Assembly (NCBI GenBank): GCA_029211095.1
Contig: JARGFS010000011.1
Span: 1 to 38,656 of the forward strand
DNA length: 38,656 bases
Reading direction: 5' to 3'
From: a bacterium
GTDB taxonomy: Bacteria > Zixibacteria > MSB-5A5 > GN15 > FEB-12
In this document: piece after piece, positions 36,203-38,656 of the stretch
Layout of the letters: each line of letters opens with the position of its first letter
Position numbering within the stretch: position 1 is the first letter of the stretch
The notes under the pieces: model-generated
Database searches by the model: none
What the model was told of the DNA's origin: nothing
The model's input: only the letters and a program-made list of their open reading frames with translations
Program-made: the position numbers and the translations under genes

Positions 36203-36766
36203 TTATCTATTGTATCTGTTCATCGCCTCGTCGATTTGATGAACGGCCATAAATATGGCAGATTCGGCCGCAATTTCCAAGGACTTTTTTACCGGTTCCA
36301 ACTCGCTCTCGGAAAAACGGCCCAGTACAAAACTAGCCGGATCAACTCCTTCCGGGAGCGGTCCGACCCCCATTCTGAGCCGGGGAAAAGCACTATTGTT
36401 CAATGAGTTGGCTATTGATTGAAGGCCGTTGTGGCCGCCATCGGAGCCCTCTTTCCGAATTCTAATTCTGCCGACCGGGAGATTGAAATCATCGACCACA
36501 GCTAACATCTGCTCCGGATCGATCTCCAGCCGATGCTTCAACAAAACCGCGACCTTTCCGGATAAGTTCATAAAAGTCAATGGTTTAACCAGCAGGATCG
36601 GCTTAGTTTTATGAGTGATGCTGGCATACAGGAAATCTGGATGAGTCTGCACAAAACTCCTGTCGAACTTGGCAGCAATCAAGTCCGCCACCTCAAACCC
36701 GATATTATGCCGGGTACTCTCATATTTTCTACCCGGATTCCCGAGCCCGATAATCACTGAGATCAT
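36203..36766 (-). CDS. pth: Peptidyl-tRNA hydrolase
   Basis: A complete 187-aa Pth, which hydrolyses the ester bond of prematurely released peptidyl-tRNA. All catalytic positions are present: N10 in GLGNPG, H20 in STRHNIGF and D93 in VVDDFNLPVG. The conserved GSDGGHNGLQSI follows. Placement upstream of rpsF is common. There is no Shine-Dalgarno; a promoter-like -10 (TATAGA) lies only five bases before the ATG, suggesting a leaderless message. The 72 bp to rpsF contain no evident terminator, so the gene probably heads the ten-gene operon. Confidence 0.96.
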   Translation of the reverse strand: MISVIIGLGNPGRKYESTRHNIGFEVADLIAAKFDRSFVQTHPDFLYASITHKTKPILLVKPLTFMNLSGKVAVLLKHRLEIDPEQMLAVVDDFNLPVGRIRIRKEGSDGGHNGLQSIANSLNNSAFPRLRMGVGPLPEGVDPASFVLGRFSESELEPVKKSLEIAAESAIFMAVHQIDEAMNRYNR

Positions 36767-36842: not shown

Positions 36843-36867
36843 TCACCCTGAGCCTGTCGAAGGGTGA
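36843..36867. repeat. Short REP-like palindrome
   Basis: A 25-bp inverted repeat with perfect arms TCACCCT and AGGGTGA around GAGCCTGTCGA. Very similar short palindromes (CCTGAGCCTGTCGAAGGG type) are dispersed in many unrelated bacterial genomes as intergenic REP elements. It lies just beyond the pth promoter and just before the first long repeat unit, and is distinct from that unit. Confidence 0.6.
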
Positions 36868-36883
36868 TCTCATGAAATGCTTT

Positions 36884-37006
36884 GGGTGGCCGGCTCAAAC
36901 TCGTTTGTGCCGGATTCATGCATCAACATTATCACAGAGAGAATCACGCCCAAACAAGTTTGGGCGTGGCACCCCATACCAGATGAGTGTACTCTTTCCA
37001 GTTGTC
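36884..37006 (+). repeat. REPtron-like repeat unit 1 (123 bp)
   Basis: A full unit beginning GGGTGGCCGGC and ending TTCCAGTTGTC. It contains two hairpins. The first pairs CCGGC/GCCGG and CAAAC/GTTTG around a TC loop with one T-T mismatch. The second is CGCCCAAAC AA GTTTGGGCG at 36947-36966. The two hairpins share a CAAAC-NN-GTTTG core, as in paired REP (BIME) elements. Confidence 0.85.
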
Positions 37007-37043
37007 GGGTGGCCGGCTCAAACTCGTTTGTGCCGGATTCATG
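37007..37043 (+). repeat. REPtron-like repeat unit 2 (partial, hairpin 1 only)
   Basis: The first 37 bases of the unit follow unit 1 directly, then similarity stops after GGATTCATG. The next ~87 bp (37044-37130) show no gene or repeat. Confidence 0.8.
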
Positions 37044-37130
37044 AACTTTGGACATGCCGATTCAGATTCACTGACACCCATTGTCAGTCCAGCTTCCTAA
37101 CTTGAAGTGTGTAAACTAAACAACAACTTT

Positions 37131-37165
37131 GGGTGGCCGGCTCAAACTCGTTTGTGCCGGATTCA
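37131..37165 (+). repeat. REPtron-like repeat unit 3 (partial, hairpin 1 only)
   Basis: A third copy of the first hairpin ends at CGGATTCA, 18 bases before the transposase ATG. It contains no stop in the transposase frame, so the frame reads back into the repeat from a GTG at 37133. Confidence 0.8.
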
Positions 37166-37183
37166 CATTCACAGGATCAAATC

Positions 37184-37732
37184 ATGAACAAGCGAGTACA
37201 TTTCAACACGCCAAACCACATACATGAGCTGACTTTTTCCTGCTATCATCGACGACCATTCCTGAATGATCCCAATCACGGTCAACTCTTGGTGGAAGCA
37301 ATTGATAGATCCAAAGAGAAACTTGAGTTCAGTCTATTGGGATATGTTTTCATGCCGAATCATATACATCTGTTGATACTCCCCTTGAGACAAAAGTACC
37401 AGATCAGCCTCATTCTAAAGAGCATTAAACAATCCGTTTCTCGTAGTGTAATGATACTGACACGAAAGACTAATCCAAACAGCTTAGATAGTTTCAAAAC
37501 CAAATCAAAGTCGAAGCCTTTCAGATTCTGGCAGCCGGGAGGTGGTTACGACAGAAACATCATCAGCCAAGTTGCACTGAGGAAGTCCATTGATTATATA
37601 CATAATAACCCAGTTAAGGCAGGCTTGGTTCAGTCACCAGACGAATGGGAGTGGTCGAGTTTCAAAGATTGGGCGAACTTGGGGCATGGACCAATTGCAG
37701 TGGACTTAGAGGCAATGCCCTTTGTTAAGTAG
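37184..37732 (+). CDS. REP-associated tyrosine transposase (RAYT, Y1/HUH family)
   Basis: A 182-aa transposase from ATG 37184, supported by AGGA at 37172-37175. The HUH metal-binding motif is in MPNHIHLLI (H60, H62). The catalytic tyrosine is Y138 in SIDYIHNNPVKAGLV, the signature of the RAYT branch. Upstream FWQPGGGYDRNI and downstream EWEWSSF are also family-typical. RAYTs nick one strand at REP hairpins and are thought to disperse them. The gene is intact and flanked on both sides by copies of a two-hairpin repeat, forming a REPtron. Base composition is more AT-rich than in neighbouring genes, consistent with acquisition. Confidence 0.93.
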   Translation: MNKRVHFNTPNHIHELTFSCYHRRPFLNDPNHGQLLVEAIDRSKEKLEFSLLGYVFMPNHIHLLILPLRQKYQISLILKSIKQSVSRSVMILTRKTNPNSLDSFKTKSKSKPFRFWQPGGGYDRNIISQVALRKSIDYIHNNPVKAGLVQSPDEWEWSSFKDWANLGHGPIAVDLEAMPFVK

Positions 37733-37748
37733 AATAAAAATTGAGTAC

Positions 37749-37872
37749 GGGTGGCCGGGACAAACTTGTTTGTGCCGGATTCATGCATCAACATTATCAC
37801 CAGAGAGAATCATGCCCAAACAAGTTTGGGCGTGGTACCCCATACCAGATGAGTGTACTCTTTCCAGTTGTC
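37749..37872 (+). repeat. REPtron-like repeat unit 4 (124 bp)
   Basis: A full unit directly downstream of the transposase. Hairpin 1 reads CAAACTTGTTTG here; hairpin 2 is GCCCAAACAAGTTTGGGC. It matches unit 1 at all but a few positions. Confidence 0.85.
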
Positions 37873-37996
37873 GGGTGGCTGGCTCAAACTCGTTTGTGCC
37901 GGATTTATGCATCAACATTATCACCAGAGAGAATCATGCCCAAATAAGTTTGGGCGTGGCACCCCATCCCAGATGAGTGTACTCTTTCCAGTTGTC
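37873..37996 (+). repeat. REPtron-like repeat unit 5 (124 bp)
   Basis: A full unit in perfect head-to-tail tandem with unit 4. One base of hairpin 2 is changed (CCCAAATAAGTTTGGG), leaving a G-T pair in the stem. Confidence 0.85.
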
Positions 37997-38091
37997 GGGT
38001 GGCCGGCTCAAACTCGTTTGTGCCGGATTCATGCATCAACATTATCAGAGAGAATCATGCCCAAACAAGTTTGGGCGTGGCACCCCATCCC
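37997..38091 (+). repeat. REPtron-like repeat unit 6 (truncated)
   Basis: Contains both hairpins but ends after CACCCCATCCC; the last ~30 bases of the unit are missing. The following 38092-38168 shows no feature before the response-regulator stop codon. Confidence 0.82.
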
Positions 38092-38168: not shown

Positions 38169-38656
38169 TCAGTCGACCTTGGCAAATCGGTAGCCGACAC
38201 CCCGAATAGTCTCGATATACTTCGGCTCTTTCGGGTCGTCCTCAAAAATCTTGCGAAGTTTCAAGATAAAATTGTCAATCGTCCGGTTAGTCGGATAAAT
38301 ATGATACCCCCAGACAGCATCGAGCAGTTGATCCCGGCTGACCACGGTCCCCATCCGCTCCGTAAGGTATTTCATTACCATACACTCCTTACGCGTCAGG
38401 TCAAACTGACCTCCGGGACCGCTGGCTACATAAGTGGTAAAATCTATCGAGCGACCATCGAATTCAAACTTATCTTCAACTTCCTCTTTGGGAGTCAGCC
38501 AGGCTTGCCGTCTGAATATCCCCTGTATGCGGGCCAGCAGTTCTGCCACTTCAAACGGTTTGGTGATATAGTCATCGCCGCCGGAGAGAAGCCCGTCAAT
38601 CCGGTCATTGGTCTGATCGCGAGCCGAAGTAAACAGAATGGGAATGGTAGCTCCGG
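38169..38656 (-). CDS. OmpR/PhoB-family response regulator (partial, N-terminus beyond window)
   Basis: The frame runs off the right edge, so the N-terminal half of the receiver domain with the phospho-acceptor Asp is missing. The visible part starts with the end of the receiver domain: PILFTSARDQTNDRIDGLLSGGDDYITKPFEVAELLARI. It contains the conserved Ser/Thr-Ala switch and the K of TKPF. The winged-helix DNA-binding domain follows: LTRKECMVMKYLTERMGTVVSRDQLLDAVWGY, then RTIDNFILKLRKIFEDDP and TIRGVGYRFAKVD. It should be a transcription factor phosphorylated by a histidine kinase not in the window. Confidence 0.93.
   Translation of the reverse strand, partial: GATIPILFTSARDQTNDRIDGLLSGGDDYITKPFEVAELLARIQGIFRRQAWLTPKEEVEDKFEFDGRSIDFTTYVASGPGGQFDLTRKECMVMKYLTERMGTVVSRDQLLDAVWGYHIYPTNRTIDNFILKLRKIFEDDPKEPKYIETIRGVGYRFAKVD

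Follow-up and report, generated by a model that had tools for sequence, protein, structure and literature searches.

In the present analysis, we describe what is very probably a REPtron in Zixibacteria, in which one intact RAYT gene lies within its cognate REPs and a heterotypic A/B REPIN serves as the spreading unit. The system occupies a 1.2-kb block at 36884-38091 of the window (the whole stretch of DNA analysed, 38,656 nt), which consists of one 182-aa open reading frame (ORF) and ten hairpin arms and is flanked by a pth gene and a response regulator gene (Table 1). An earlier note on this DNA had proposed a REPtron with an intact transposase in an uncultured lineage, and these points are borne out. 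The ORF is intact, and its product scores 105.5 bits against the NCBIfam model REP_Tyr_transpos NF047646 (cut-off 80), which places it in the RAYT (TnpA-REP) family. The repeat is dispersed through the genome and is mostly intergenic. The nearest named RAYTs are those of Zixibacteria at 57%, 55% and 50% identity, all with REPs of the same foot and the same core and with other outer stems.

The RAYT protein also matches Y1_Tnp at 37 bits, and it could be aligned to the E. coli TnpA-REP structure 4er8. In this alignment, it has the HUH motif (H60-I-H62), W116-Q117 (W94-Q95 in 4er8), the catalytic tyrosine Y138 (Y115) and, four residues further on, the asparagine N142 (N119). E100 and H101 of 4er8 are replaced by D and R, replacements which have been reported in subclasses 2.5 and 2.7 (PMC6006769), and R104 of the E. 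coli enzyme is not kept, I127 standing in its place. The gene is single-copy, with one match in this genome at E <= 1e-15. Two other, distant Y1 genes, on contigs C78 (broken) and C223, were considered as alternative sources of the REPs and were rejected, as no such REPs lie near them.

Table 1 Features of the RAYT locus and its borders (positions in the window).
Feature	Position	Strand	Remarks
pth (peptidyl-tRNA hydrolase) gene	36203-36766	-	Left border of insertion site; identity read from sequence
REPIN 1	36884-36974	+	Arm A 36884-36917 (+), spacer, inverted arm B 36941-36974 (-)
Linker, 32 nt	36975-37006	+	Joins REPIN 1 to the next arm A; further copies below
Lone arm A	37007-37040	+	
Lone arm A	37131-37164	+	19 nt upstream of the RAYT start codon
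RAYT (TnpA-REP) gene	37184-37732	+	182 aa, intact; NF047646, Y1_Tnp, alignment to E. coli TnpA-REP 4er8
REPIN 2	37749-37840	+	Arm A 37749-37782 (+), arm B 37807-37840 (-)
Linker copy 2	37841-37872	+	
REPIN 3	37873-37964	+	Arm A 37873-37906 (+), arm B 37931-37964 (-)
Linker copy 3	37965-37996	+	
REPIN 4	37997-38085	+	Arm A 37997-38030 (+), arm B 38052-38085 (-); end of array, without linker
Response regulator gene, PhoB/OmpR-type	38169-38654, off window edge	-	Right border of insertion site; identity read from sequence

The repeat had been described as two hairpins with a common core and different outer arms. Both features were found, but the orientation had been overlooked. When hairpin 1 is compared with the reverse complement of hairpin 2, 34 nt align without gaps at 76%, and common to both are the foot GGGTG, a stem of ten pairs around CAAAC-NN-GTTTG and the tail GATT(C). 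Hairpin 2 is thus an inverted REP with the same foot, core and tail, and the two hairpins are the arms of one REPIN. The repeat unit is this REPIN, made of arm A and an inverted arm B (72-95 nt), and the 124-bp unit is the REPIN together with a 32-nt linker. The outer stem changes on both sides together, being CCGGG/CCCGG or CCGGC/GCCGG in A and CACGC/GCGTG in B. Arm A can be written as GGGTGG, CCGGG-N-CAAACTTGTTTG-N-CCCGG and ATT, and arm B as GGGTGC or GGGTGG, CACGCCCAAACTTGTTTGGGCGTG and ATTC. Under the REP definition (a hairpin of 20-65 nt with a 5' GT[AG]G foot), only the A type of these 34-nt arms agrees in full, the foot being GTGG in most A arms and GTGC or GTGG in B arms.

Pairing of the stem was examined by covariation. 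In the 36 arms of this genome, 46 cells with changes on both sides were counted, and the score was 0.345 compared with 0.109 in shuffled and at most 0.110 in slid alignments; in 103 arms including those of relatives, 147 cells and a score of 0.444 versus 0.123 were obtained, where the 103-arm alignment was fitted to the arm model, the 36-arm test is the cleaner of the two, and sequence kinship can inflate both scores. The compensated changes distinguish one arm type from another and one genome from another, and they affect both partners of a given pair. Arm A of REPIN 2 carries an uncompensated G-G at stem position 11/26. At position 12/25, beside the core, most arms have T-G, T-T or another non-Watson-Crick pair, and this mismatch may be a parallel to the bulge of E. 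coli REPs, in which a mismatch is required for cutting (PMC8266576).

At the locus itself, hairpin 1 is present in six copies and hairpin 2 in four, and the arrangement is as first described, with full units in exact tandem (steps of 124 nt at 37749, 37873 and 37997) and two partial units that consist of hairpin 1 only. The left full unit (36884-37006) measures 123 nt, the last unit ends at 38091 without the 32-nt linker, and the copies of the 124-nt unit are about 94-98% alike. The lone arm A next to the RAYT gene probably lies in its 5' leader, and relatives have a REP arm in the same position.

The repeat is not confined to this locus, and only its linked 124-nt form is local. By BLAST, the unit matched many contigs at levels far beyond chance, the best E values being 1e-56 within the locus and 2e-13 in other parts of the genome. 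Using the arm model, at least 58 arms were found at E <= 0.02 in 34 clusters on 28 contigs, the number being a lower bound from the 150 of 1858 first-look candidates that were scored by this model. The clusters are mostly intergenic: 25 of the 34 lie outside ORFs of at least 100 aa, where random placement within these loci would give 5.5 (P about 3e-14), and several of the nine 'genic' clusters fall in ORFs that look spurious, running through the repeats themselves. The dispersed REPINs are mostly 72-75 nt long, some 81-95 nt, and the linker was matched only inside the locus, save for a weak partial match on C45. The arms beside the RAYT gene are mostly CCGGC..GCCGG, while the main dispersed type is CCGGG..CCCGG, and therefore the dispersed elements have not been copied recently from the local array. 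Identical arm A sequences occur on the separate contigs C10, C93 and C224.

The earlier suggestion of hairpin 1 as the smallest element to be moved or cleaved now appears weak. All next-neighbour two-arm elements of this genome are inverted with their feet outward and nearly all are A/B, which points to the REPIN, not hairpin 1 alone, as the spreading unit. The one exception in type is C175, with an unusual second arm; in the pair on C219, repeats occur within the B arm. Inverted pairs of two A arms or of two B arms were not clearly seen. Lone arms were of type A at 12 loci and of type B at 3, and the B singles at C73 and C236 have a broken A alongside. On C93, the A arm is kept and of B little is left beyond the foot CACCC. 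It had been considered that partial copies might always end after GGATTCA, but this is not the case: the tandem A copies on C10, at steps of 85 nt, cross the spacer and stop inside arm B after GAATCACG. The A-only copies thus fit with loss of the B arm, which is sufficient to explain them. No clear target duplications were seen by eye at REPIN ends. Two single loci deserve mention in their own right. On C45 (L241, 2225-2265), a lone arm A with the stem GCCGCCTCAAAC..GTTTGGGGCGGT is followed by a T run and looks like a REP turned intrinsic terminator. On C93 (L043, 166-500), repeated coding-like pieces (GGACCGGGCCGATTGCCGA) are found in alternation with two copies of arm A, as if the REPs were involved in duplicating a gene end.

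Related RAYTs at 47-57% identity were found in seven other Zixibacteria, those within the family or order being in G011 (partial), G019, G020 and G039. All eight RAYTs, including the one described here, adjoin REPs of the same foot and core, with a near-variant core in G020, and the outer stems of these REPs differ by compensated changes. The RAYTs at or below 41% identity that were read (G040, G055, G029, G017, G030 and G036) are accompanied by hairpins whose cores are different and whose foot is often GGGTG as well. On the RAYT tree, the RAYTs with CAAAC REPs stand on one side of a branch, and a single change is needed for this trait, with weak support (55/81). As a separate observation, the RAYT at L251 (C11 of G029, approximately 365-883) is bordered by numerous, nearly identical copies of CCGTGACCAAGGTCACGGGCACGAGGATCTTGTG in tandem and represents another REPtron type.

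Of 61 genomes, 22 were found to contain arms, a same-genus genome having 15 at E <= 1e-4. Some of the 22 have no close RAYT; the foot and core are the same there, and the outer stem is genome-specific. For example, G001, G017, G030, G036, G021, G025 and G015 contain 6 to 31 CAAAC-core arms and no close RAYT, and seem to hold REP populations which outlive their enzyme, unless the RAYT gene is missing from the assembly. Since CAAAC REPs without a close RAYT occur in G001, G017, G030, G025 and G015, the presence of RAYT and repeat is not strictly coupled.

Orthologous sites were compared at the locus and elsewhere. In G025 and G009, which belong to other genera of the same family, the response regulator and pth genes are adjacent, less than 190 bp apart, and neither a RAYT nor a REP lies between them; when 36884-38091 is removed from the window, 194 bp are left between the two genes. 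As the genes are adjacent without the REPtron in both genomes, it was either inserted here or lost in both others. Compared with the genus mate G001, six orthologous REPIN sites were a mixture, some shared and decayed, with a decayed arm common to both genomes at one of them, and some lineage-specific, such as C239; none of the six was a clean site that lacks just one REPIN, some being too rearranged.

Taking the E. coli and Stenotrophomonas enzymes as models, we infer that the RAYT would bind the single-stranded hairpin through its core, loop and GTGG foot and would cut beside it, using Tyr138 and the HUH motif (H60/H62). It would then mobilise or copy REPINs in trans, with intergenic DNA as the main target. 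Under the guide rule established with the Marinomonas enzyme (PMC8266576), a GTGG foot would be predicted to prefer CA or CC as cleavage sites, and a candidate is the tail GATTCA of the local A arms. The arrays of REPIN plus 32-nt linker may then have arisen by tandem amplification at the REPtron, after which the arms would decay, and B, as the perfect hairpin, would be lost more often, leaving lone A arms. A related proposal, which we consider rather improbable, is that A and B are functionally different ends; REPIN polarity may then matter, the RAYT gene itself may move as a large REPIN, and the core may be read while the outer stem drifts by compensation. This proposal for Zixibacteria comes from G019, G020 and L060, where an A-like arm lies upstream of the RAYT and an inverted B-like arm downstream of it, with the gene placed like the cargo of a REPIN.

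Some observations tell against the REPtron explanation, namely the failure to find a clean empty site in the comparison with G001, the difference between RAYT-side and dispersed arms, the loose coupling of RAYT and repeat among genomes, and the replacement of R104. Several other explanations were also weighed. That a segment with hairpins was merely duplicated in place next to an unrelated transposase gene, with no dispersed family, agrees with the restriction of the full linked unit to the locus and with the likeness of its copies, but the arms and REPINs on 28 contigs, mostly intergenic, and in the same-genus genome and other Zixibacteria make it scarcely credible; a purely local duplication is ruled out by this dispersal, and only the linker array is a local duplication. 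It is also very improbable that the locus is an ordinary insertion sequence of the IS200/IS605 type, bounded by its own ends, and that the scattered repeats are its non-autonomous MITE-like derivatives. The Y1 transposase domain and the arms immediately on both sides of the gene in several relatives would suit this explanation; however, the protein gives 24.8 bits against the IS200 model NF033573 (cut-off 55), outside that family and above the RAYT cut-off, the gene is single-copy, and the arms are inverted, unlike the same-strand ends of IS200/IS605.

Alternatively, the hairpins could owe their retention to a role in RNA, as terminators, stabilisers of mRNA 3' ends or leader control elements, their spread being secondary. 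The intergenic bias, the T run after the C45 arm and the arm A shortly before the RAYT start would all be in line with such roles, but a T run is missing from most arms, and an RNA role by itself would not call for conservation of the GGGTG foot, which lies outside the stem; we regard this explanation as improbable. A somewhat more plausible, although still unlikely, explanation is that REPIN spread is over, the dispersed arms being relics of an older population and the RAYT being kept for a host function while no longer moving them. The difference between dispersed and RAYT-side arms, the decayed arm shared at an orthologous site and the genomes with arms and no close RAYT speak for relics, whereas the identical A arms on three contigs and the lineage-specific sites suggest some recent spread, although gene conversion could produce the same patterns.

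Among known systems, the REPtron described here resembles that of E. coli (PMC6006769, PMC8266576), where one RAYT also lies among several inverted pairs of two related, different REP types, the Y and Z2 REPs, which form three such pairs (PMC6006769). The two have in common the conserved HUH, Tyr, Asn and WQ residues, dispersed intergenic copies and a mismatch in the arm A stem. They differ in the foot (GTGG/GTGC here, GTAG there), in the core CAAAC-NN-GTTTG and in the guide-contact residues (D/R here, E/H there, with R104 not kept), and tens of copies were found here. As in Pseudomonas fluorescens SBW25 (PMC3116915), inverted doublets are the unit, lone REPs can be read as remnants, and tandem REPIN clusters with flanking DNA adjoin a RAYT; in contrast to the SBW25 REPINs, two distinct arm types occur in nearly every pair, and the foot and core are others. 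Dimers whose two elements differ in stem or loop are also known among the GTAG-tagged REP families of Enterobacteriaceae and P. aeruginosa, and a GTGG foot variant in O. terrae (PMC3733652), although the cores of these families are others. No report of such a family, or of any REPs, in Zixibacteria was found in our literature search, an absence which is not proof. RAYT/REPIN systems are hereby extended to Zixibacteria; the system belongs to an already known kind, that of domesticated transposases, and is organised in the manner of the E. coli REPtron. The related RAYTs, whose REPs keep foot and core and swap the outer stem by compensated changes, form a natural comparison set, which may help to tell the portion of the hairpin that is read by the enzyme from the portion that needs only to be paired. 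The genomes with REPs and no close RAYT can serve to study for how long a REPIN population persists once its enzyme is gone.

In addition to the REPs, short palindromes, TCACCCTGAGCCTGTCGAAGGGTGA and CATGCTGAGCTTGTCGAAGCATG, form a second family that is intergenic in both genomes and often close to REPINs; it is present in the window at 36843-36867 and near many REPINs in L213, L215, L229 and L230.
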